A stretch of DNA of 64,000 bases, taken from positions 16,183 to 80,182 of the forward strand of contig JACCXN010000055.1 of the NCBI GenBank assembly GCA_013696965.1, read 5' to 3'. Shown in pieces: positions 9,120 through 44,879 of this stretch. The stretch is from Bacteroidota bacterium (GTDB taxonomy: Bacteria; Bacteroidota; Bacteroidia; JACCXN01). Numbering within the stretch: the stretch's first letter is position 1; the number at the start of each line of letters is the position of its first letter. The notes under the pieces were generated by a model. The model searched no databases. It was not told the DNA's origin and saw only the letters and a program-made list of their open reading frames with translations. The position numbers and the translations under genes were made by a program.

Positions 9120-10442
9120 ATGGAAAATGTATCAACAAACAATCAAGTGTTAAAATATAAGGTAAAAGATATGTCCCTTGCTGATTGGGGCAGACGCGAA
9201 ATCAGACTTGCCGAGGCAGAAATGCCAGGCTTAATGGCAATAAGGGAAGAGTTTGGAGCAAAAAAACCATTGAAAGGTGCACGAATTGCTGGTTGCCTTC
9301 ATATGACTATCCAAACAGCAGTGTTGATTGAAACATTAGTTGAACTTGGTGCAGAAGTTACCTGGTCATCATGTAATATTTTTTCAACCCAGGATCATGC
9401 TGCCGCTGCTATAGCTGCTGCCGGAATTCAGGTTTATGCTTGGAAAGGGTTAAACGAAAAGGATTTTGACTGGTGTATAGAGCAGACTCTGTTTTTTGGT
9501 GAAGATAAAAAACCATTGAACATGATTCTTGATGATGGTGGTGATCTTACCAATATGGTTTTTGATAGATATCCTGAATTAGTAAAAGATATCAAAGGTC
9601 TTTCAGAAGAAACTACAACTGGAGTGCACAGACTTTATGAAAGAATGAAAAATGGCACTTTGCCAATTCCTGCCATTAATGTTAACGATTCCGTTACAAA
9701 ATCTAAATTCGACAATAAATATGGTTGTAGAGAATCTCTTGTAGATTCTATTCGTAGAGCCACTGATGTTATGATGGCTGGTAAAGTAGCAGTTGTTGCT
9801 GGTTTTGGCGATGTTGGAAAAGGTTCTGCTGAATCTTTAAGTGGAGCCGGAGCAAGGGTTATTGTTACTGAAATTGATCCAATTTGTGCTCTTCAAGCTG
9901 CAATGGAAGGGTATGAAGTAAAGAAATTTGCTGATGCAGTTAAAGAAGCTGATATTGTGGTTACTGCTACGGGAAATTTTAATATTGTAACAGAAAAAAG
10001 TTTCCGTTCAATGAAAGATAAAGCTATCGTTTGTAATATTGGTCACTTTGACAATGAAATAGACATGGCTTGGTTGAATAAAAACTTTGGACATACCAAA
10101 GAAGAAATCAAACCACAAGTTGATAAATATACTATTGATGGTAATGATGTTATTGTTCTTGCAGAAGGCAGACTTGTGAATTTAGGATGCGCCACAGGTC
10201 ATCCTTCATTTGTAATGTCTAACTCTTTCTCTAACCAAACCCTGGCCCAATTGGAACTTTGGACAAATCCTGGCCAGTATGAAAACAAAGTATATACTTT
10301 GCCTAAGCAACTGGATGAAAAAGTGGCCAGATTACACTTAGCTAAAATTGGTGTTGAGCTCGATGAACTTTCTTCTGAACAAGCAAAATATATTGGAGTA
10401 GATATTAAAGGGCCATTTAAACCGGATTACTACAGATATTAA
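9120..10442 (+). CDS. ahcY: adenosylhomocysteinase
   Basis: It splits S-adenosylhomocysteine into adenosine and homocysteine, removing the product inhibitor of methyltransferases; a cytosolic, NAD-dependent tetramer. The 440-aa length fits. Family blocks visible are [15 protein letters not shown] near residue 80, the substrate/NAD region [20 protein letters not shown], the NAD-binding GFGDVGKG near 227, VTATGNFNI, and the C-terminal [20 protein letters not shown] ending in the conserved KPDYYRY. It is a single-gene unit with its own promoter and a strong terminator. Confidence 0.98.
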
Positions 10443-12240: not shown

Positions 12241-15200
12241 ATGCTAAAACAAATACAACTGTTGTTTTTAATTACTCTTGCTTCGGTTACCATTGCAAAA
12301 GCACAGGTAGGCCAAGGTGGTTTAAAAGGTAAAGTTTTGGACAAGGTAAATAATGAGCCTGTTCCTTTTGCAAATGTTGTTGTGGAATTAAACGGCAATC
12401 AAATTGCAGGTGTTACTACTGATATTGATGGTAATTTTTTCATTAAACCGCTTTCTCCCGGAAAGTATGATGTTAAAGCATCTTTTGTAGGTTATGAGAA
12501 AATTCAAATATCCGGAGTAGTAGTTTCTTCTGATCAAATTGCTTTCTTAAATATTAAAATGTCTCAGGGTATTGAACTTGCTACTTTTGAAAAAGTGGAG
12601 TATGAAGTTCCTTTGATATCTAAAGATAAAACTTCTTCTGGAGGTACTGTTACCCGGGAGGAAATTGCCAAAATGCCGGGGCGTTCCGCGGAAATGGCCG
12701 CTCTTACTGTAGGTGGTATTTATTCTGCTGACGGTGAAAGAGGTAGTGTAAGAGGAGCAAGAGAGGATGCAACGGATACTTATATTGATGGTGTTAAAGT
12801 TAGAGGTGCAGTTACAGTTCCTAACCAGGCTATTGAACAAGTTACTGTTATTATGGGAGGAGTACCTGCTCAATATGGTGATGCTACCGGAGGTATTATT
12901 AGTATTACAACCAGGGGCGCATCTTCCACTTATTTTGGAGGGGTGGAGCTTATTTCTTCTCAATTAACAGATGCATATGGTTATAATCTTATGGGTTATA
13001 CCCTTTCCGGACCTTTATTAATGAAAAATGATCCTCAGGATTCTACCAAGAAAAAACCTTTAGTTGGATTTTTCTTTTCTGGTGAATTGAAATCTGAAAA
13101 GGACCCTCGTCCTTCAGCCATTGGTTCTTGGAAAGTGAATGAAGATAAAATGCAATCACTCAGAGACAATCCTTCCAAACCTGTTGGGACCGGTTTCTTT
13201 CCTACCGGTGAGTTTGTAAGGACAAGTGATATGGAGCAAATTAAAGCAAGACAAAATGTTTCTACTAAAGGAGCTGTGGTTGCAGGCAAAATTGATATTA
13301 ATACCAGTACAAACACCCATCTTACACTGGGTGGTACAATGGACTATGGAACAAAGAGAACGGGTGTTTCTAATGATATTAATAGGAATGTTTTTGAAAA
13401 TACTTTGTTTAACTCTGACCATAATCCATTAATAACAGAAAATGTGTGGAGGGTTTATACAAATTTCACACATCGTTTTACTGGCGATGCCATGCAGGAA
13501 GAATCTGCTTCAGTAATTAAAAATGCATACTATTCTTTGCAGTTGGATTATTCCAAAAACAACAGAAGAATTGAGGACCCGATTCACAAAGACAAAATTT
13601 TCAACTATGGTCATATTGGAAAATTCAATTCTACATTTGTGAATTACTATACTCCTTTTCCTGTTTTTGAAGACTCTACTGGATTAACTGCATACGTGCA
13701 TGAGAATTTTCAACAAACTGCTTATGAATTTGAACCTGGCACCAGCAATCCTATTCTTGCTAATTATACACAGAATTACTATGATTTATATGAGGACCCT
13801 GCAGGGCATTATGAAAATCCTCAACAAGTAATTGAAGGAGGAGGTTTGTTAAATGGACGTTATCCAATGAATAAATCTCGTGGTCATGTTTATGATATTT
13901 GGAACGCACCTGGAATGCCTTACAATGGATATTCAATTATGGACAATTCTCAGTTCAGAGTAAGAGCTACCGGATCTGCAGATATTAAAAACCACGCTAT
14001 TCTTGTAGGTTTTGAATACGAACAGCGCTCAGATAGATTTTTTAATGTTACAAACCCTTATCAATTGTGGCAAAGAGCCAGAGATCTTGCAAACCTGCAC
14101 ATACAACAACGTGATGTTGCTAACCCAGAAGTGGTTTACACGGAGGGGAATCCAATTCCAACCATCACTTATAAAAGGTTTAATAATTCTCCAGGAGAGT
14201 ATGACAATTTTAATGGTGACGAAACCCAGTCCTTTTTTGATTATAATTTAAGAGGAAAATTAAACCTGGATCAGGATGGCCTTGATTTTCTTGATGTGGA
14301 TTCTTACGATCCAAGCCTTTATACGCTTGATATGTTTAGTGCAAATGAATTGTTGAATGAGGGTTATAATTTTGTTAGCTATGCCGGATATAACCACAAA
14401 GGAGAAAGACTTAAAGGGAAGCCAAGTTTTGATGGTTTCTTTAACGATAGAGATGAATTTGGAAATTTAAAACGTGAAATAGGTGCTTTTCAGCCAATTT
14501 ACATTGCAGGGTATATTCAGGATAAATTTGCTTTTGAAGATCTTATTTTTAATGTTGGTCTTCGTGTTGACAGGTTTGATGCCAATCAGTTTGTTTTGAA
14601 AGATCCTTATTCTTTATTTGAAACAAGGAAAGCTGCTGAACTTCCTGCTGATTTACGCCCTTCCAATATTGGCGATAACTTCGTTGTTTATACCTCAGAT
14701 GATGCGACTGCAGATATTTCTGAGCCAAATTCAATTTTAGGTTACAGAGATGGCGATAAATGGTATAACGCTAAAGGAATTGAATTGAATGACCCTAGTG
14801 TGCTTCTAACTTCTAAGGGCGTTACGGCTCCATGGTTGCTTAATCCTGATAAGAGAAATGCAAGTACTGATCTTACCAGTTCTGCATTTACAGATTATAC
14901 TCCACAGGTAATAGTTATGCCGCGTATCGCTTTTTCATTCCCTATTTCTGATGAAGCATTGTTTTTCGCACATTATGATGTACTTGCAAAAAGACCAGGA
15001 AGTGGCTTAAGATTAGATCCTACGGATTATCTTTTTCTTCAAAGTGGTCCGAATTCAACTTTAAACAATCCAAATTTGAAACCTGAGAAAACAATTACCT
15101 ATGAATTGGGTTTTCAACAAAAGTTAACTTATAGCTCTTCTTTGAAGTTTTCTGCCTTCTACAATGAAATGAGAGACATGGTTCAGGTGATAAACGTGAA

Positions 15201-15972
15201 TTATGCTTATCCAAGAACCTATAGAACTTATGGTAATATGGATTTTGGAACAGTAAAAGGGATGACAATTGTTTATGATTTAAGAAGGACCGGAAATATT
15301 TCACTTAGAGCATCTTATACTTTGCAATTTGCTGATGGTACAGGCTCTAGTGCAACTACCGGTTTAAATATGATCAATGCTGGCCAGCCCAATTTAAGAA
15401 CAGCATTTCCTTTGGAATTTGACCAGCGCCACAATTTTACCGCAAGTCTTGATTTTAGATTTGGAAAAGGAAAAAATTACAATGGCCCGGTTTGGTTTGA
15501 TAAGCAGGTTTTCTCAAATACCGGTCTAAATGTTCTGGGAATGGCAGGCTCAGGTACTCCTTATTCCCAGCAGTCTAACATTAGCCCGGAAGCATTAGTG
15601 AATGGCGGTAGAAGTGTAATGAAAGGAAGCATGAATGGATCAAGAAATCCAGGACAAATGCGCCTTAGTTTAAGATTAGACAAAGACATTGATTTGCAGT
15701 GGGGTAAAGAGGAAGAGAAAAAGAAAAAAGCTGCTTTAAATGTTTACCTATGGGTTCAAAATGTGTTAAATACCAAGAATGTTATTAATGTTTACAGAGC
15801 TACAGGGAATCCTGACGATGATGGTTTTTTGAATGCTGCCGAATATCAGCAAGGCATCCAGCAGCAAAACGATGAAGCTGCTTACAGAGAATTATATGCT
15901 CTTAAAGTTAACAATCCACGTAATTACAGTATGCCAAGAACAATAAGGTTAGGAGTAATCCTGAGCTTTTAA
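12241..15972 (+). CDS. TonB-dependent receptor with N-terminal carboxypeptidase-like domain
   Basis: An outer-membrane gated barrel of 1243 aa. Signal peptide is residues 1-22 (cleavage after AKA). A CarboxypepD-reg-like beta-sandwich follows at about 27-115 (GLKGKVLDKVNNEPVPFANV ... DGNFFIKPLSPGKYDVKASF), then the plug at about 130-230 with MPGRSAEMAALTVGGIYS and DTYIDGVKVRG, then a long barrel ending in an aromatic-hydrophobic strand (RLGVILSF). There is no SusD gene beside it, so this is not a usual glycan-uptake pair. The next gene starts 23 bases downstream and encodes a giant secreted protein, then a PorV-like barrel, all on one strand: a probable operon. Substrate unknown. Confidence 0.93.
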   Translation: MLKQIQLLFLITLASVTIAKAQVGQGGLKGKVLDKVNNEPVPFANVVVELNGNQIAGVTTDIDGNFFIKPLSPGKYDVKASFVGYEKIQISGVVVSSDQIAFLNIKMSQGIELATFEKVEYEVPLISKDKTSSGGTVTREEIAKMPGRSAEMAALTVGGIYSADGERGSVRGAREDATDTYIDGVKVRGAVTVPNQAIEQVTVIMGGVPAQYGDATGGIISITTRGASSTYFGGVELISSQLTDAYGYNLMGYTLSGPLLMKNDPQDSTKKKPLVGFFFSGELKSEKDPRPSAIGSWKVNEDKMQSLRDNPSKPVGTGFFPTGEFVRTSDMEQIKARQNVSTKGAVVAGKIDINTSTNTHLTLGGTMDYGTKRTGVSNDINRNVFENTLFNSDHNPLITENVWRVYTNFTHRFTGDAMQEESASVIKNAYYSLQLDYSKNNRRIEDPIHKDKIFNYGHIGKFNSTFVNYYTPFPVFEDSTGLTAYVHENFQQTAYEFEPGTSNPILANYTQNYYDLYEDPAGHYENPQQVIEGGGLLNGRYPMNKSRGHVYDIWNAPGMPYNGYSIMDNSQFRVRATGSADIKNHAILVGFEYEQRSDRFFNVTNPYQLWQRARDLANLHIQQRDVANPEVVYTEGNPIPTITYKRFNNSPGEYDNFNGDETQSFFDYNLRGKLNLDQDGLDFLDVDSYDPSLYTLDMFSANELLNEGYNFVSYAGYNHKGERLKGKPSFDGFFNDRDEFGNLKREIGAFQPIYIAGYIQDKFAFEDLIFNVGLRVDRFDANQFVLKDPYSLFETRKAAELPADLRPSNIGDNFVVYTSDDATADISEPNSILGYRDGDKWYNAKGIELNDPSVLLTSKGVTAPWLLNPDKRNASTDLTSSAFTDYTPQVIVMPRIAFSFPISDEALFFAHYDVLAKRPGSGLRLDPTDYLFLQSGPNSTLNNPNLKPEKTITYELGFQQKLTYSSSLKFSAFYNEMRDMVQVINVNYAYPRTYRTYGNMDFGTVKGMTIVYDLRRTGNISLRASYTLQFADGTGSSATTGLNMINAGQPNLRTAFPLEFDQRHNFTASLDFRFGKGKNYNGPVWFDKQVFSNTGLNVLGMAGSGTPYSQQSNISPEALVNGGRSVMKGSMNGSRNPGQMRLSLRLDKDIDLQWGKEEEKKKKAALNVYLWVQNVLNTKNVINVYRATGNPDDDGFLNAAEYQQGIQQQNDEAAYRELYALKVNNPRNYSMPRTIRLGVILSF

Positions 15973-15995
15973 TAAATTTTTATAAAAAAATCTAT

Positions 15996-18900
15996 ATGAA
16001 AAAATTAAGCTTTTTATTCTTAAATATTTCTGTTTGCCTTGTTTTTGTTGCAAATACTACTTTCGCAAAAAATAGTACTAATAGTTCCAATGGAGGGCAA
16101 AACAATCCTGGTTCAAACCAAAACACCCCTTCCTTGGCCGCTGGTTGCGCAGTTGCTAGTGCTTCCCGTGATCTTGATTTAAACAATGTTAGAGCTTTAA
16201 TTCACACTGGTGGAGATATGTGGTGGGATCTTGTTGGAAGTCCCAGATATGAAATTCCTAAAGGTTCAGGAAATCATTCTATGTTTTCAGGAGCACTCTG
16301 GATGGGTGGTGTGGATGTTAATGGACAATTAAAATTAGCTGCTCAAAGATTTCGTAATAAAGGAAATGATTATTGGCCTGGTCCTTTAAACAAAATAACC
16401 GTAGATATTGATGCTCCTACTTGCTATGAATACGATAAGTTTTTTGTTACAACAAGAGCGGAGGTTGAGGAATTCAATGCCTGGTTTTTGGCTACTCAGG
16501 ATAATCCTGCACAAGCTGCTTTAGATTTTCCCGGATACCTTATTCCTAAATCTATTTTGGATTGGCCTGCCCATGGTAATCCTGGCAATAATGAAGGATA
16601 TTACCTTGCACCTTATTTTAAGAGAGATGGATCAACTGGGGCATACAACCCTTATGACGGTGACTATCCTGGATACGAGTTGGTTTCCGGAGGTGAATGT
16701 GGAACAACAAGAGATGTGAAACTTTACGGTGATAAAAACCTATGGTGGGTATTTAACGATAAAGGAAATGTACATACTGAAACAGGTGGTTCACCAATTG
16801 GTATGGAAGTGAGAGCGCAAGCCTTTGCCTTTTCTACAAACGATGAAATTAACAATATGACATTTTACAATTATGAACTTATTAACCGTTCAACCTTTTC
16901 ACTTGAAAATACCTATTTTGGTGTATGGGCTGATGCAGATTTAGGTTTTTACGATGATGATTTTGTTGGTTGCGATGTTCAAAGAGGATTAGGTTATGCT
17001 TACAATGGCGCGGAAACTGATGGTACTGGTGCACCAGGACATTATAAAGGTACTCCTCCTGCTATAGGTATTGACTTTTTTGAAGGGCCTTATCAAGACA
17101 ATGATGGGATAGATAACCCTTTGGTTTATGATTACAATCTTGCTAAAGCAGGTAATGGTATTCCCTATTCTGGTCTTGGTATTGGCTATGGTGATGGGAT
17201 TATAGACAATGAACGTTTTGGGATGTCACGTTTCCTGTATCACAATAAAGGAGGTCAAGGTGCTAACGCTATTCAGGAACCAGAAACAGCTCCAGATTAT
17301 TATAATTTCCTAAGAGGTATATGGAAAGACAATACTAAAATGGTATATGGAGGAAACGGTCACGTTTCTGGTGGAGGAGTTGGTGAATGCAATTATATGT
17401 TTCCAGGAACTACTGATCCAATTGGATGGGGTACAAATGGAGCGCCACAACTAAACTGGACAGAAGAAACTGCTCTCAATGTTGCTGCTGATAGACGTTT
17501 TGCTCAATCAGCAGGACCCTTTGTTCTTAAACCGGGAGCTGTAAATAATATTACTGTTGGTGTGGTATGGGCTCAGGCACTTTCAGGTGGTCCTTTTGCA
17601 TCTGTGGAAAAGTTAAAAATTGTAGATGATAAAGCACAATCTTTATTTGATAATTGCTTTAGAATTCTTAATGGACCCGATGCTCCTGAATTAACTATTA
17701 AAGAATTAGATAAAGAGCTTATACTTTATTTAAGTAACCCAAGAGGGAATAATGTGAATGAATCGTATATTGAAAAAGACTATACAATTCCTTCCATAAA
17801 TATTGAAACAGGACAAGCTTTTGACCAATTTTATAGATTCCAGGGATATCTTATTTACCAGGTAAAGGATGGAACTGTAACGGCAGATGAAATTGGGAAT
17901 CCGGATAGAGCAAGATTAACTGCACAGGTTGATATTAAAGATGGCGTTTCAAGGTTAATTAATTTTAAATTTGATGAAAATATTCTTGCAAATGTACCTG
18001 AAGATGTTATAATCAATGGTACGGATAAAGGAATTTACCATTCATTTAGAATTCTCGAAGATAAATTTGCTTTAAATGCTAAAAAACTTGTTAATCATAA
18101 GCCTTATTACTTTTTAGCAATTGCTTATGCTTACAATAATTTCAAACAGTATAATCCTCTTCAGCCGTCAGGATTAGATGGACAAACTAAAACCTATAAA
18201 TTAAGCCGTAAGACTGCTAGTGGGAGTATTAAAGCTTTTAAAGCTGTTCCGCATAATTCATCACCCAGAGAAACTGGTATTTTAGTTAACAGTTCATATG
18301 GCGATCAGCCAATAATTACTAGGATTGAAGGTCAAGGTAATGGAGGATTAAACATTGAATTTTCTGCTGAGAGCGAAGCCCAAATATTCTCTGCAGGTAA
18401 AATTGAATTTCCTGTTTACAAAAAAGGATTTGGGCCTGTTGATATTAAAGTTGTAGATCCGTTAAATGTTCCTGATGCAACTTTTGAGATTAAATTAAAT
18501 GTCCCGGGAACTTCTTCTATTGACACTGCCAGCTGGATACTTACTAACACTTCAGCTTTTGAAGTGGATGGACAAAGCTATGCCGCTGGAGAATTTGTTG
18601 TAAATTCTGGAACCTCAATTAAAGTAGCTTATGAGCAATTAATTCCGGCCATTGGCCTTTCTATTCGTATCGAACAGGCCGAAAATCCTGGAATTCCTAC
18701 TTCACTTACCAATGGTTACATTGGGGCTTCCATGGAATTTAATGATGAACAAAACAGATGGCTTACAGGTGTTTCTGATGCTGAGCAGTTCAGTCAAACC
18801 AATTGGATTCGTTCTGGTACTTTTGATGATACAACAATGTTTAATTATCCATACAATAAAATATATTTTGATTATGGTGGAAAAGACGATAAAGAAATAT

Positions 18901-19991
18901 ATGAAAAAGTATTGAATGGAACTTGGGCTCCTTATGGTTTAACTTCTGTTTATGAACATGGTCCGGCTATACCTGTAACTGGGGGTAATACAGATTTAAG
19001 CAAGGTGAAAAGTGTTGATGTTGTTATTACTGATGACAAAACCAAATGGACCAGATGTCCTGTTCTTGAAAATCAATTCAATCCGCTTTTATCCCTTGGT
19101 GGTGCTGTTAAAAATGGATTAAGAAAATCACCTTCTGTTAATAAGGATGGAATTGCTGATGGAAGTGGCAATGGAATGGGATGGTTTCCAGGTTATGCTG
19201 TTTGTGTTGAAACTGGTGAACGTTTAAATATGGCTTTTAGTGAGGATACCTGGCTAGGTGATGCCAATGGTAGGGATATGTTATGGAACCCAACATCAGT
19301 TGTGTATACAAATACTGGCCAAATAAGAGGTGGAGGAAAGCATTTTATATATGTGTTTAATAAACGCGGAAATCTACCAAATCAAATGCCTGCTTACGAT
19401 GAAGGAGAAAAATTGAAGGAATTTATTACTGCAGGTGGAACTGCTTTGCGTGAAGTATGGAACAATTGTATGTGGGTAGGTTATCCTTTGCTTGTAAAAG
19501 ATAAGAAACTTTTAGGAACAGAAGTTAAAATTAAACTTAGAGTTTCAAGAAAGTATGAGAAATATGAAACAAGCAGTGTTGCAAATGACAAAAATCCACT
19601 TTACTCTTTCGATCTTAAGGATCTTGCCACTGAAAAGGGAAGTTCAATCGCACTGGATTCTGCACTTTCACTTGTGAATGTTGTTCCGAATCCTTATTAT
19701 GCATATTCAGGTTATGAAACCAACCAATTGGACAACAGAATTAAGATTATTAACTTGCCTGTAGAAGCTTCTGTTACAATTTATACTGTAAATGGCACTT
19801 TAATTCGCAAATTTGCAAAAGCTGATAAGACAACCTCACTTGAATGGGATTTGAAAAACCATGCTGGCATACCTATTTCAGGTGGTGTTTATTTAATACA
19901 TGTAAGTTCGAAAGACGAAACGGGTGTTTTAAGAGAAAGGGTATTAAAGTGGTTTGGAATTATGCGACCGGTTGATCTTGATTCATTTTAA
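15996..19991 (+). CDS. giant secreted protein with type IX-like C-terminal domain
   Basis: A 1331-aa exported protein: signal peptide 1-24 (VFVANTTFA), then a low-complexity N/S/G/Q segment, then a conserved-looking N-terminal block (NNVRALIHTGGDMWWDL, GALWMGGVDVNGQLKLAAQ, GNDYWPGPL). The body is rich in aromatic and glycine residues. Near residue 1226 comes NVVPNPYYAYSGYE, the usual opening of a C-terminal beta-sandwich of the type IX sorting (Por) class, continuing with VTIYTVNGTLIRKF, LEWDLKNHAGIPISGGVYLI and an unusual tail that ends MRPVDLDSF. I recognise the architecture as recurring in Bacteroidota next to a TonB receptor and a PorV-like protein, but its function is unknown to me. It probably ends up at the cell surface. 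Confidence 0.85.
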   Translation: MKKLSFLFLNISVCLVFVANTTFAKNSTNSSNGGQNNPGSNQNTPSLAAGCAVASASRDLDLNNVRALIHTGGDMWWDLVGSPRYEIPKGSGNHSMFSGALWMGGVDVNGQLKLAAQRFRNKGNDYWPGPLNKITVDIDAPTCYEYDKFFVTTRAEVEEFNAWFLATQDNPAQAALDFPGYLIPKSILDWPAHGNPGNNEGYYLAPYFKRDGSTGAYNPYDGDYPGYELVSGGECGTTRDVKLYGDKNLWWVFNDKGNVHTETGGSPIGMEVRAQAFAFSTNDEINNMTFYNYELINRSTFSLENTYFGVWADADLGFYDDDFVGCDVQRGLGYAYNGAETDGTGAPGHYKGTPPAIGIDFFEGPYQDNDGIDNPLVYDYNLAKAGNGIPYSGLGIGYGDGIIDNERFGMSRFLYHNKGGQGANAIQEPETAPDYYNFLRGIWKDNTKMVYGGNGHVSGGGVGECNYMFPGTTDPIGWGTNGAPQLNWTEETALNVAADRRFAQSAGPFVLKPGAVNNITVGVVWAQALSGGPFASVEKLKIVDDKAQSLFDNCFRILNGPDAPELTIKELDKELILYLSNPRGNNVNESYIEKDYTIPSINIETGQAFDQFYRFQGYLIYQVKDGTVTADEIGNPDRARLTAQVDIKDGVSRLINFKFDENILANVPEDVIINGTDKGIYHSFRILEDKFALNAKKLVNHKPYYFLAIAYAYNNFKQYNPLQPSGLDGQTKTYKLSRKTASGSIKAFKAVPHNSSPRETGILVNSSYGDQPIITRIEGQGNGGLNIEFSAESEAQIFSAGKIEFPVYKKGFGPVDIKVVDPLNVPDATFEIKLNVPGTSSIDTASWILTNTSAFEVDGQSYAAGEFVVNSGTSIKVAYEQLIPAIGLSIRIEQAENPGIPTSLTNGYIGASMEFNDEQNRWLTGVSDAEQFSQTNWIRSGTFDDTTMFNYPYNKIYFDYGGKDDKEIYEKVLNGTWAPYGLTSVYEHGPAIPVTGGNTDLSKVKSVDVVITDDKTKWTRCPVLENQFNPLLSLGGAVKNGLRKSPSVNKDGIADGSGNGMGWFPGYAVCVETGERLNMAFSEDTWLGDANGRDMLWNPTSVVYTNTGQIRGGGKHFIYVFNKRGNLPNQMPAYDEGEKLKEFITAGGTALREVWNNCMWVGYPLLVKDKKLLGTEVKIKLRVSRKYEKYETSSVANDKNPLYSFDLKDLATEKGSSIALDSALSLVNVVPNPYYAYSGYETNQLDNRIKIINLPVEASVTIYTVNGTLIRKFAKADKTTSLEWDLKNHAGIPISGGVYLIHVSSKDETGVLRERVLKWFGIMRPVDLDSF

Positions 19992-20027
19992 TAAAATTTA
20001 TACATACGATACATATAATTAATACTT

Positions 20028-21089
20028 ATGAATAGATATTTAAAATTCGCCTTTGCAGTAGTTGGTTCAGCAATTTTATGCTCAAATGGTATTGCGGGTA
20101 ATAAGGATAGAGCAGGACAAGCCGGTGGATCTGCACTATTAATAAACCCTTGGGCCAGGAGTACTGGATGGGGAGGCGCAAACACTGCCAGTGTATCTGG
20201 TATTGAAGCCATGAGCCTTAATGTTGCAGGAATTGCTTTTACAAAAAAAACAGAAATTGTTTTTGCACATACTAACTGGCTTAACATTTCAGGCTCAATT
20301 GATGACAACATTAACATTAACGCATTCGGTTTATCTCAGCGTGTTGGTGAAACCGGGGTAATTGGCCTTAGTGTATTATCCATGAATTTTGGAGATGTAA
20401 TGGTTACCACTGTTGATTTGCCTGAAGGTGGATTGGGTAATTTTTCTCCTTCTTACTCTGTAATTGGTCTTTCCTACGCGAAGGAGTTTTCGAACAGTAT
20501 ATATGGAGGATTAACGCTTAAAATGGTTTCTGAGAAAATAGCAAATGCCGGTGCTACTGGAGTTGCTATTGATGCCGGTGTAAGATATGTTACAGGTGAA
20601 AATGATAAAATAAAATTTGGAATTGCACTAAGAAATGTTGGCCCACCAATGAAATTCAAAGGAGATGGTCTTTCTATTAGAGGTGTTATTCCTACTACAG
20701 GTGCTAGTCTTACCGTTGAACAAAGAACTTCTCCATATGAGTTACCCTCAATGATTAATATTGGTGCTTCTTATGATTTCAAGCTTCTAGAAGATCACAG
20801 ATTAACTCTTGCAGGAAATTTTGCCTCCAATTCGTTTACCAGAGATCAAATTTTGTTAGGACTTGAATATGGTTTCAAAAATTATTTCATGCTTAGAGGT
20901 GGATATGCTTACGAAGAAGGAATTACTAGTGTTAGTGACAGAGTAACAGCCTTTACTGGTCCTTCTGCAGGTGCTACTTTTGAACTTCCTTTAAATGATA
21001 AGGGAACCACCTTTGGTTTCGATTACTCTTACCGTGCTACAAATCCTTTTAACGGTGTTCATAGTTTAGGGGTGAGAATTAATTTATAG
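20028..21089 (+). CDS. PorV/PorQ-family outer-membrane beta-barrel protein
   Basis: A 353-aa protein with a signal peptide (residues 1-23) and the PorV-family opening GGSALLINPWARSTGWGGANTASV, followed by EAMSLNVAGIAFT and repeated amphipathic strands to a C-terminal SLGVRINL. PorV of the type IX secretion system shuttles cargo from the translocon to the attachment complex. This copy sits 36 bases after the giant secreted protein gene, which suggests that it serves that protein and the TonB receptor rather than the general system; no other por/gld genes are near. A terminator follows at 21138-21170. Confidence 0.85.
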   Translation: MNRYLKFAFAVVGSAILCSNGIAGNKDRAGQAGGSALLINPWARSTGWGGANTASVSGIEAMSLNVAGIAFTKKTEIVFAHTNWLNISGSIDDNININAFGLSQRVGETGVIGLSVLSMNFGDVMVTTVDLPEGGLGNFSPSYSVIGLSYAKEFSNSIYGGLTLKMVSEKIANAGATGVAIDAGVRYVTGENDKIKFGIALRNVGPPMKFKGDGLSIRGVIPTTGASLTVEQRTSPYELPSMINIGASYDFKLLEDHRLTLAGNFASNSFTRDQILLGLEYGFKNYFMLRGGYAYEEGITSVSDRVTAFTGPSAGATFELPLNDKGTTFGFDYSYRATNPFNGVHSLGVRINL

Positions 21090-21137
21090 TGGTATATAAA
21101 TAATTTTTTTTTATTAAATTTGTTATAGTATTTATAA

Positions 21138-21170
21138 AGAGTCCCGACTTTGTCGGGATTCTTTTATTTT
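21138..21170 (+). terminator. Terminator closing the TonB-receptor / secreted-protein / PorV unit
   Basis: Stem TCCCGAC (21142-21148) and GTCGGGA (21152-21158), three-base loop, then a T-rich tail to about 21170. Confidence 0.85.
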
Positions 21171-21207
21171 TTATTATACTTAAACAATGATTTTTATTTA
21201 AACAGTT

Positions 21208-21681
21208 ATGGGCAAACCAACATATTTTACTCAGGAAGGTCTGGAGAAGTTGAAGGATGAATTACATCAATTAACAACTTTTGAGCGCCCTTCCATTTCC
21301 AAACAAATTGCAGAAGCAAGAGACAAGGGTGATCTTTCAGAAAATGCGGAATATGATGCAGCCAAGGAAGCCCAGGGTTTACTTGAATTGAAAATATCAA
21401 AATTGCAGGATGTTTTAAGTACTGCCCGTATTATTGATGAATCTAAACTGGATAATTCCAAAGTACTTATTCTTTCTAAAGTTAAAATAAAGAATACAAA
21501 AAATGGAGCAACAATGATTTATACACTTGTTCCTGAAAATGAAGCCGATCTTAAAACGGGTAAAATCTCAATAAATTCACCCATAGCAACTGGCTTGTTG
21601 GGCAAAAAAATTGGTGAGAGTGTTGCTATTGCCGTCCCATCTGGAGAAATGGAATTTGAAATAATTGAAATTGGCAGATAA
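21208..21681 (+). CDS. greA: transcription elongation factor GreA
   Basis: GreA binds the secondary channel of RNA polymerase and stimulates cleavage of backtracked RNA. The 157-aa length is typical. The N-terminal coiled coil carries the catalytic acidic tip in RDKGDLSENAEYDAAKEAQ (residues 40-58), and the C-terminal FKBP-like domain includes ISINSPIATGLLGKKIGE. The next gene begins on the base after its stop codon. Confidence 0.97.
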   Translation: MGKPTYFTQEGLEKLKDELHQLTTFERPSISKQIAEARDKGDLSENAEYDAAKEAQGLLELKISKLQDVLSTARIIDESKLDNSKVLILSKVKIKNTKNGATMIYTLVPENEADLKTGKISINSPIATGLLGKKIGESVAIAVPSGEMEFEIIEIGR

Positions 21682-22089
21682 ATGGCATCTGTATTCACTA
21701 AAATCATAAATGGCGAAATTCCTTCTCACAAGATTGCTGAGACAGATGATTTTTTCGCATTTTTAGATATTAGCCCACTTGCACTTGGCCATACGCTCGT
21801 AATTCCCAAAAAAGAAGTTGATTATATATTGAATCTTGAAGACGAATTATATTCACATTTATGGGCTTTTGCTAAAACTATTGCCATTGCTCTTGAAAAA
21901 TCAGTTGATTGCAAAAGAATTGGAATAGCTGTTATTGGCCTGGAGGTGGCTCATACTCATATTCACCTTATTCCAATTAATAAGGTTGATGATATTAATT
22001 TTTCCAGGCCTAAAATGAAATTATCGGATGAACAATATGCCCTAATCGCAAAGGATATTCGTAATAACCTTGCTTTTCCTTTTAATTGA
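21682..22089 (+). CDS. HIT-family nucleotide hydrolase
   Basis: A 135-aa Hint/PKCI-like protein that hydrolyses nucleoside phosphoramidates or dinucleotides. The catalytic histidine triad is HTHIH at residues 91-95 within [12 protein letters not shown], and the opening [16 protein letters not shown] is the standard N-terminus. ATG directly follows the greA stop, so translation is probably coupled. Its 3' end overlaps the convergent ruvC by 8 bases. Confidence 0.95.
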
Positions 22090-42182: not shown

Positions 42183-44879
42183 ATGGAAAATTTAATGTAT
42201 GTAATCCCTGTATTTGGTTTACTTGCCCTTTTGTATACTGCCATAAAATCAGCATGGGTTACCAAGCAGGATGCGGGAAATGAAAAAATGAGCACAATTG
42301 CTACCTATATAGCCGATGGTGCTATGGCATTTTTGAAGGCCGAATATAAGGTGATGGTGTATTTTGTAATAATTGCGTCTGTTTTCCTAGCTTATTTAGG
42401 GTATGTAGGGGAACATTCTCATCCTTTAATTGTTGGTTCATTTATTATTGGTGCTTTCCTCTCTGCCCTTGCAGGTTATATCGGGATGAAAATTGCTACA
42501 AAAGCAAATGTAAGGACAGCTCAGGCTGCAAGAACAAGTCTTTCAAAAGCCTTGAATGTTTCTTTTACAGGAGGAGCAGTAATGGGTCTTGGTGTTGCCG
42601 GACTAGCTGTTTTAGGTCTTGGATCTTTATTTATTGTATTTTATTACATTTTTGTTCAATCCACAGGAGCCAATGTTAATGGCGATGAAATGCAAAAAGC
42701 CCTTGAGGTTTTAACCGGATTTTCATTGGGTGCCGAAAGTATTGCATTATTTGCTCGTGTTGGTGGAGGTATTTATACAAAAGCAGCTGACGTAGGGGCA
42801 GATCTTGTTGGAAAAGTTGAAGCTGGAATTCCAGAGGATGATCCTAGAAACCCTGCTACTATTGCAGATAATGTAGGTGATAATGTTGGTGACGTTGCAG
42901 GTATGGGAGCGGATTTGTTCGGTTCTTATGTTGCTACAATACTTGCTACAATGGTTTTAGGAAGAGAAATTATTCTGACAGATAATTTTGGCGGAATTTC
43001 TCCAATTTTACTTCCTATGGTAATTGCGGGAATGGGTATTGTGTTTTCTATGATAGGAACACTATTTGTAAAGGTTAAAGAAGGTGGTAATGTACAGCTT
43101 GCTCTAAATATGGGTAATTGGTCATCCATTGTTTTAACGGTAATTGCCTCCTATTTTCTTATAAACTGGATGCTTCCTGATGGAGAAATGATCATGTCAA
43201 GGGAAGGTGCAATGCCTTTTACAAAAATGGGTGTTTTTTATGCTGTAACAATTGGTTTAATTGTAGGAACTATAATCAGTATGATAACTGAATATTATAC
43301 TTCGATGAACAGAAAACCGGTAAATTCTATTATTCAGCAATCCTCAACAGGTGCTGCTACAAATATTATTTCAGGATTAAGTGTAGGAATGATGAGTACA
43401 GCATTGCCAATACTTGTTTTAGCTGCAGGTATTATTGGTTCATATATGGTTGCCGGGTTATATGGTGTTGCCATTGCTGCTGCCGGAATGATGGCAACTA
43501 CAGCTATGCAACTTGCAATTGATGCATTTGGTCCAATTGCCGATAATGCAGGGGGAATTGCTGAAATGAGTGAATTGCCAAAAGAAGTGAGAGAAAGAAC
43601 AGATATTCTAGATGCAGTTGGAAATACTACAGCTGCAACCGGAAAAGGTTTTGCTATTGCCTCTGCCGCTTTAACGGCTTTAGCTCTTTTTGCTGCTTTT
43701 ATGGCTATGGCAAAAATTAATTCTATTGATATTTCAAAGGCCCAAGTTTTGGCAGGTCTATTCGTTGGTGGTATGATTCCTTTTGTGTTTTCAGCTCTTG
43801 CAATAAGTGCTGTTGGACGTGCTGCTATGGCTATGGTTCATGAAGTTAGAAGGCAATTTCGAGAAATTCCTGGAATTATGGAAGGTACAGGAAAACCTGA
43901 ATATGAAAAATGTGTTGCAATTTCAACGGATGCGGCCATCAAAGAAATGATACTTCCTGGTGCTATTGCACTTCTTGTTCCAGTAATTGTTGGCTTCTCG
44001 TTCGGTCCGGAGGTACTAGGTGGTGTACTTGCAGGAACTACTGTTTCTGGTGTTCTTATGGCTATTTTCATGTGTAATGCTGGTGGTGCATGGGATAACG
44101 CTAAGAAATCATTTGAAAAAGGCGTTGAAATTAACGGAAAAATGGAATATAAAGGCTCTGATGCTCACAAGGCTTCAGTAACTGGCGATACTGTTGGTGA
44201 TCCTTTCAAAGATACTTCTGGCCCATCAATGAACATTCTAATTAAGTTAATGTCAATTGTTTCTCTTGTAATTGCGCCTCATATTGCTATGATTGAAACT
44301 ACTGAAATTGCTAAGCCTATAGGTGAAATCGAAAATAGTAACAGTTCAGTTACAAATGGACTTTATACAGTAAATACAGCTGAATCGTCTTTAGCATGGA
44401 TAGGAAAAAAAGTTTCTGGTGCTCATGATGGTTTGGTAACCATAATAAAGGGTGAGTTAAAAGTTGAAAATGGTATTGTTACGGGTGGTTCTTATTTAAT
44501 AGATATGAATTCTATAAGCTGCCTTGATATTGAGGATATGGATGACAACGGAGATTTAGTAACACATTTGAAAAATGATGATTTTTTCTCTGTTGAAAAA
44601 TATCCAAGTTCAAGTTTTACTATTAATTCTGTTTCCTCAATTCAGGGTGATACTTATAATATTACTGGAATTTTAACTGTTAAGGGAATATCAAATGAAA
44701 TAATTGTGCCTGCAGTTATTACTGCAAATGAAAACAAAATAAGTGCTGTAGCAAATTTTTCAATTGACAGAACAAAATGGGATGTTAAATATAAGTCTAA
44801 GACTTTTTTTCCAGAACTTGCTGATAAATTTATTCATGATAATATTGAGTTTAAATTATTACTTGTAGCTAGGAAATAA
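42183..44879 (+). CDS. hppA: membrane-bound pyrophosphatase fused to a YceI-like domain
   Basis: A cation-pumping pyrophosphatase that uses PPi hydrolysis to export H+ or Na+. Residues 1-712 are the standard 16-helix enzyme, with [16 protein letters not shown] near 197, [18 protein letters not shown] near 228, and TAATGKG near 480, where alanine (not lysine) marks the K+-dependent type. After a linker, residues about 725-898 form a separate soluble domain with the YceI pattern: [67 protein letters not shown]. YceI proteins are lipocalin-like and bind isoprenoid lipids in the periplasm; the C-terminus of this pump faces the periplasm, which fits. The fusion is in one frame, without a stop. Confidence 0.93.

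Follow-up and report, generated by a model that had tools for sequence, protein, structure and literature searches.

A conserved trio of a TonB-dependent receptor, a giant probable type IX substrate and a PorV/PorQ-family barrel as a candidate surface unit of Bacteroidota

Results

A receptor, a large surface protein and a barrel are encoded in a row

We analysed a stretch of 64,000 nucleotides, referred to here as the window. It contains three adjacent genes that encode a TonB receptor, a large surface protein (BIG) and a barrel protein (PORVL). The features of the locus are as follows.

12241–15972, plus strand: TonB receptor gene (open reading frame, 1243 aa); parts: signal peptide, carboxypeptidase-regulatory domain (residues 28–109), candidate TonB box (around 117–126), plug and beta-barrel
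15996–19991, plus strand: BIG gene (open reading frame, 1331 aa, surface protein)
16128–17690, plus strand: BIG N-domain, residues 45–565, predicted super-beta-sandwich (AlphaFold2 pLDDT 92, pTM 0.92)
19638–19958, plus strand: BIG Ig-like C-terminal domain (CTD), residues 1215–1321 (model pLDDT mostly 80–90, one loop below 50)
19959–19988, plus strand: BIG C-terminal tail IMRPVDLDSF, residues 1322–1331, past the last strand
20028–21089, plus strand: PORVL gene (open reading frame, 353 aa)
21136–21174, plus strand: terminator-like stem and T-run (13 pairs, 6 G-C)
21208–22089, plus strand: greA and HIT-family genes (HIT by Pfam, GreA by sequence), context outside the unit

The open reading frames bear out the original prediction of three genes on one strand, with 23 bases between the receptor and BIG and 36 between BIG and PORVL. 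Each product has the expected signal peptide, of the Sec type and evident by eye; the calls are thus a visual judgement for all three. The terminator proposed to close the unit is present as a 13-pair stem followed by a T-run at 21136–21164, which is the strongest terminator-like site of the region, and such sites are no commoner here than in shuffled sequence (8 observed, 7.7 in shuffles). No RNA element or riboswitch was found near the unit, and the window holds only three tRNAs, all away from it.

Two other genes of the window deserve mention. An S-adenosylhomocysteinase gene lies 5' of the unit (9120–10442, plus strand), and the same gene is found upstream of the triads in L036, L039, L041, L043, L089, L112, L127, L153, L159 and L160; no riboswitch was found in the window. 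Further downstream (42183–44879, plus strand), a membrane H+-pyrophosphatase of 898 aa carries a fused C-terminal YceI-like domain. Open frames of 911–952 aa with matches that reach the YceI part occur in at least five other families (for example in G006, G008, G014, G026 and G028), and in many relatives the pyrophosphatase seemingly lacks this part.

The first gene encodes a TonB-dependent receptor that is not of the SusC type

Judged by sequence, the product of gene 1 is a TonB-dependent receptor with both a plug and a beta-barrel. Three Pfam models matched above their cut-offs: the carboxypeptidase-regulatory domain PF13620, the plug PF07715 (32.8 bits, cut-off 23.9) and the barrel PF00593 (49.3 bits, cut-off 27). 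An alignment of 48 receptors revealed a conserved stretch ending in PLI or PLV ahead of the plug, a candidate TonB box. SusC models did not match the receptor at E ≤ 0.1. In line with the original prediction of no SusD nearby, a scan of window genes that covered both neighbours within the unit yielded no SusD. A SusCD identity of the unit was thus rejected, with no SusC model match for the receptor and no SusD match for BIG or PORVL.

BIG is predicted to combine a carbohydrate-type fold with an Ig-like C-terminal domain

The predicted N-domain of BIG resembles the N-terminal super-beta-sandwich of the GH15, GH94 and GH116 glycoside hydrolases (Z about 17–19, rmsd 3–4, 231–274 aa). In a search with the predicted structure it matched 9ju0 with a Z of 19.4 (rmsd 3.0, 251 aa) and glucodextranase 1ug9 with a Z of 18.6. 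The (alpha/alpha)6 catalytic barrel of these hydrolases is not apparent in either predicted half of BIG, and BIG gave no GH Pfam match. Residues 558–753 or thereabouts are predicted to be fibronectin-III-like, the fold search gave no clear match for residues 754–1215, and no PDB homologue of BIG was found at E ≤ 1. From the modelled fold of the N-domain, a carbohydrate-type ligand is a first guess, and one that we regard as rather unlikely to prove right. Two proteins of only 585–716 aa (L067 and L068) share the N-domain and have the C-terminal end of ordinary type A cargo; therefore, the N-domain is not tied to a receptor. BIG was also considered as a lipoprotein. Its sole invariant cysteine near the N-terminus, C51 (AAGC), is set apart from the signal peptide by a polar linker, and this identity was rejected.

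The predicted structure of residues 556–1331 (pLDDT 89) ends in an Ig-like sandwich. Its last strand (1312–1321) carries K1318, a lysine that is invariant in 26 sequences, and is followed by a low-confidence tail. As modelled, the end of BIG has two features of type A proteins, an Ig-like beta-sandwich and a last strand that carries a conserved lysine. The type A model TIGR04183 gave borderline scores around its cut-off of 23 bits (21.6 bits with the protein, 26.0 bits in the genome search), and the type B model gave no match at E ≤ 0.1. The best structural match of the CTD was the CTD of PorZ (Z 10.9, rmsd 2.4, 89 aa, 26% identity), followed by that of PorU (Z 9.6, rmsd 2.9), in a score that favours longer CTDs such as these two. 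The CTDs of PorZ and PorU are unprocessed (PMC11285876). BIG itself is not PorZ: the PorZ model NF052228 reached 31.6 bits, with a cut-off of 260, and matched the CTD only.

The BIG family has its own conserved C-terminal tail

The original prediction noted an extra MRPVDLDSF tail not usual for such signals. This tail is real and conserved. In 125 of 130 BIG proteins the last-strand lysine lies at position −14, so that 13 more residues follow it. A pattern derived from this same family, K-x9-[LIF]-[DNQES]-x-[FYLIW]-end, describes 110 of the 130 members, and none of 40 ordinary type A CTDs from the same genome. Those ordinary CTDs usually stop no more than six residues past the lysine, and their final residue is typically K, Q, N, E or H. 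The ordinary type A spacing, with an end at most about six residues from the lysine, was thus rejected for BIG, in which 13 residues follow. We infer with moderate confidence that the K-x9-L-[D/N]-x-F tail is likely a recognition or retention element.

PORVL belongs to the PorV/PorQ family and is neither PorV nor PorQ

PORVL matched the PorV/PorQ family model NF033709 with 155.3 bits (cut-off 90), and its nearest solved structure is PorV of Flavobacterium johnsoniae (6h3i, E 1.2e-16). It also has weak matches to the FadL type (TodX). Several known identities were tried and rejected. PORVL scored below the cut-offs of canonical PorV (63.6 of 250 bits), PorQ (66.4 of 220) and PorV2 (42.0 of 325), and reached 20.8 bits with the PorP/SprF model TIGR03519 (cut-off 90.6). 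It is not BamG either: strong PORVL matches are absent from families f40, f39, f35 and f15, while BamG is reported to be universal (PMC12611786).

The trio is conserved in the class and in the phylum

Among 40 relatives from the same class, 34 carry BIG, and almost every one of these represents a different family. Among these 34, the full order of receptor, BIG and PORVL was seen at 27 loci, and several other loci are cut by contig ends. The best BIG copies of the class share about 50% identity, and the order is kept at protein identities of roughly 35–60%. At least 583 BIG loci are present in species genomes; 48 of 80 named loci from such genomes are full triads. Another part of these 80 loci has BIG without these neighbours, mainly in Crocinitomicaceae-like genomes. 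One cultured carrier is Brumimicrobium oceani.

With profiles of PORVL and BIG we searched 296 genomes from across the phylum. The BIG profile detected its protein in 73 of them, of which 72 have a strong PORVL and 63 have PORVL on the same strand within 4.5 kb downstream of BIG; these counts score the top candidates per genome, in genomes that include many draft or metagenome assemblies and are not phylogenetically independent. Twenty regions were inspected, 17 of them outside the class and 3 inside it but in other families, and yielded 21 complete triads. In the other classes the trio often occurs in several paralogous or tandem copies. Of the regions inspected, L183 holds two triads in tandem, and at L182 a BIG–PORVL pair without a receptor of its own follows a triad. 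In class Bacteroidia, the genes next after a triad are usually greA and one of the HIT family, a flank that did not appear behind the triads of other classes. Across the 21 triads, divergence agrees closely between the three proteins (r 0.83–0.88), and the cassette therefore evolves as a unit.

Some loci depart from this layout. Full-length BIG genes with the conserved tail and no adjoining receptor or PORVL gene were seen at L034, L035, L050 and L054, and at about 25 of the loci L086–L165. All four relatives with such an orphan BIG that were checked (G020, G024, G025 and G026) also hold a triad, which means that one barrel may serve two substrates. At L184 (2678–7648, minus strand), a PORVL gene and a shortened receptor gene (855 aa) with no intact BIG lie beside a complete triad, possibly a decaying copy.

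Conservation of the neighbours had been set beforehand as the test on which the unit would stand or fall, and the three genes hold their order both across the class and in further classes. Operon-like spacing alone is weak evidence of a unit and conservation decides, so that a mere chance neighbourhood of the three genes is refuted and of negligible probability. The receptor, BIG and PORVL families are each known in kind. We found no description of the trio among open-licence papers. What appears new, in that it was not found in the papers searched, is the combination: a PorV/PorQ-family barrel paired across the phylum with a tailed PorZ-like CTD, in regular coupling with a TonB receptor.

The type IX secretion system is encoded elsewhere in the genome

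The original prediction had remarked that no general type IX genes are nearby. Indeed, no core gene of the type IX secretion system (T9SS) was found near the unit. Elsewhere, the source genome encodes SprA, PorU–PorV, PorQ and PorU2–PorV2, along with about 148 type A CTD proteins. Because the genome has these genes elsewhere, their absence near the unit carries no weight. SprA is also present in every BIG genome sampled; this set is not phylogenetically independent, the SprA-negative genomes listed come mostly from one family, and the co-occurrence of SprA and BIG is supportive rather than decisive. We consider it very probable that BIG is a T9SS substrate.

A PorV-family barrel beside a large CTD protein is a recurring arrangement in this genome, found as PorU–PorV, PorU2–PorV2, a glycosylhydrolase with a PorV-like barrel, and BIG–PORVL. 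The gene for PorU2 (1655 aa) shares four bases with that for PorV2 (L169 on G000:C9, 3451–9494, minus strand), and the two form a sortase–barrel pair, on which our literature search found no paper. The third case (L167 on G000:C91, 3736–7668, minus strand) is a barrel scoring 233 bits with the PorV model (cut-off 250). It directly adjoins a CTD protein resembling F510_1955 glycosylhydrolases, a candidate substrate–shuttle pair.

The N-domain of BIG diverges in step with the receptor

We compared distance matrices on 61 complete loci, with GreA, PORVL and the other BIG parts partialled out. The BIG N-domain follows the receptor with a partial r of 0.61 (p 0.001, 999 permutations), a value that adjacency on the DNA (linkage) or distance saturation may inflate. 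The same domain follows PORVL with a partial r of 0.16. For the CTD of BIG, the value with PORVL (0.18) is as weak as that with the receptor (0.19). Coevolution of the CTD with PORVL was thus rejected as proof of their pairing, the correlation being just 0.18.

Mainly on the distance correlation, we lean slightly towards BIG working in contact with the receptor. Of the proposed link between export and import, what holds is that N-domain and receptor diverge in step beyond their operon history; the contact itself and the imported ligand would be plausible extensions of this pattern.

Discussion

A model of export, retention and uptake

Taken as a whole, the best explanation of the three genes is one outer-membrane surface unit, with export by the T9SS, retention by PORVL and uptake by the receptor, an account that we find evenly balanced between right and wrong. 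BIG would, with good confidence, use Sec to cross the inner membrane and pass the outer membrane through the general type IX translocon, by way of its Ig-like CTD. CTDs are bound inside SprA by PorV loops, with a lysine near the C-terminus (PMC10994853). At the translocon, PORVL may well substitute for PorV, taking up BIG and holding its uncleaved CTD, so that BIG would stay on the surface bound to PORVL; this retention is modelled on PorZ held by PorQ, PorU held by PorV, and type B proteins held by PorP/SprF. The N-domain of BIG might then sit on the receptor as a ligand-capturing partner, and the receptor might import the ligand at the expense of TonB. BIG would thereby do for the receptor, without lipidation, what SusD does for SusC.

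The half of this model that concerns export and retention is well supported by analogy with these known pairs. PORVL is probably a dedicated shuttle or anchor of BIG, which agrees with the original prediction that the barrel is dedicated to the 1331-aa protein and draws on gene pairing, the PorZ/PorU-like CTD and the family-specific tail. A broader proposal is that the trio represents a third general design of TonB receptor complex, in which the extracellular lid, in place of a lipoprotein, is a giant protein exported by the T9SS and held by PORVL through an uncleaved CTD with the K-x9-L-[D/N]-x-F tail, and one cassette of export, anchoring and import duplicates for different ligands. We regard this proposal as possible and somewhat doubtful.

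Other readings of the locus

The receptor could be merely co-expressed with BIG and PORVL, which would form an anchored surface protein (an adhesin, a coat or a glycan binder) with no physical coupling to it. Pairs of a CTD protein and a barrel that lack a receptor are common, as in PorU–PorV, PorU2–PorV2 and the glycosylhydrolase pair, and the receptor-less BIG–PORVL pair at L182 fits the same pattern. However, a receptor gene regularly opens the unit in the different classes and diverges in step with the N-domain of BIG, and we consider an uncoupled receptor unlikely, if worth serious attention.

BIG could also be ordinary PorV cargo that is cleaved by PorU and then attached or released, next to a PORVL that acts as an independent FadL-type barrel for small hydrophobics. 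The genome does encode canonical PorV and PorU, the CTD keeps the type A lysine, and PORVL has its weak TodX matches. The fixed tail of BIG, the pairing of BIG with PORVL throughout the phylum and the closeness of its CTD to unprocessed CTDs all speak against such processing, which makes this reading improbable.

Still less probable is that the unit is a second T9SS module resembling the attachment complex, with BIG as a PorZ-like glycolipid factor and a receptor that moves surface glycan. The PorZ-like CTD and the carbohydrate-type fold of the N-domain would suit this role. Yet many T9SS genomes lack the unit (e.g., in families f40, f39, f35 and f15), canonical PorQ is present in the source genome, and several paralogous triads per genome fit varied ligands better.

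Comparison with known systems

T9SS shuttles are known in two forms, PorV for type A signals and dedicated PorP/SprF proteins for type B. The unit, in which BIG would be anchored, resembles the type B arrangement (SprB–SprF and PG1035–PorP), where dedicated shuttle genes lie directly downstream of their substrates (PMC12618676) and PorP-like barrels serve as anchors (PMC9143113). There, the barrel is proposed to be both carrier and anchor and the CTD is thought to be kept, as we propose for BIG and PORVL. Unlike in type B, PORVL is of the PorV/PorQ family, the BIG CTD is Ig-like with a type A lysine, and a TonB receptor is part of the unit.

As we propose for BIG, the large surface proteins of the attachment complex (PMC10202324, PMC8545088) keep their Ig-like CTD uncleaved and are held by a PorV/PorQ-family barrel, PorZ being retained on PorQ and PorU on PorV (PMC10202324), and it is these two CTDs that the BIG CTD resembles most in fold. 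The passenger of BIG, however, is unrelated to the propellers of PorZ or the protease of PorU, PORVL is neither PorQ nor PorV, and BIG ends about eight residues further from the lysine than ordinary CTDs do.

SusCD and BtuB–BtuG share with the unit a TonB receptor encoded together with a large surface partner (PMC7782687, PMC10404256). Those known Bacteroidota partners, SusD and BtuG, are lipoproteins (PMC7782687, PMC10404256), whereas the signal peptide of BIG does not end in a lipobox, and BIG has a T9SS-type CTD and a barrel of its own. In contrast to SusCD, the unit has no SusD and its receptor is not of the SusC type. In the BAM complex, BamG–BamH similarly involves a FadL-type barrel that holds a surface protein (PMC12611786). 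Both BamG and the lipoprotein BamH are reported to occur in all Bacteroidota (PMC12611786), whereas many families lack PORVL and the non-lipoprotein BIG.

If our reading is true, Bacteroidota have a widespread, dedicated shuttle of the PorV/PorQ family with its own signal variant, which can be recognised by a simple C-terminal pattern. If the contact with the receptor holds as well, this would be, to our knowledge, the first TonB receptor complex whose surface partner arrives through the T9SS and not as a lipoprotein. The model thus offers a testable function for three linked genes that many uncultured Bacteroidota have in common, that are amplified in other classes of the phylum and that databases annotate only in part.
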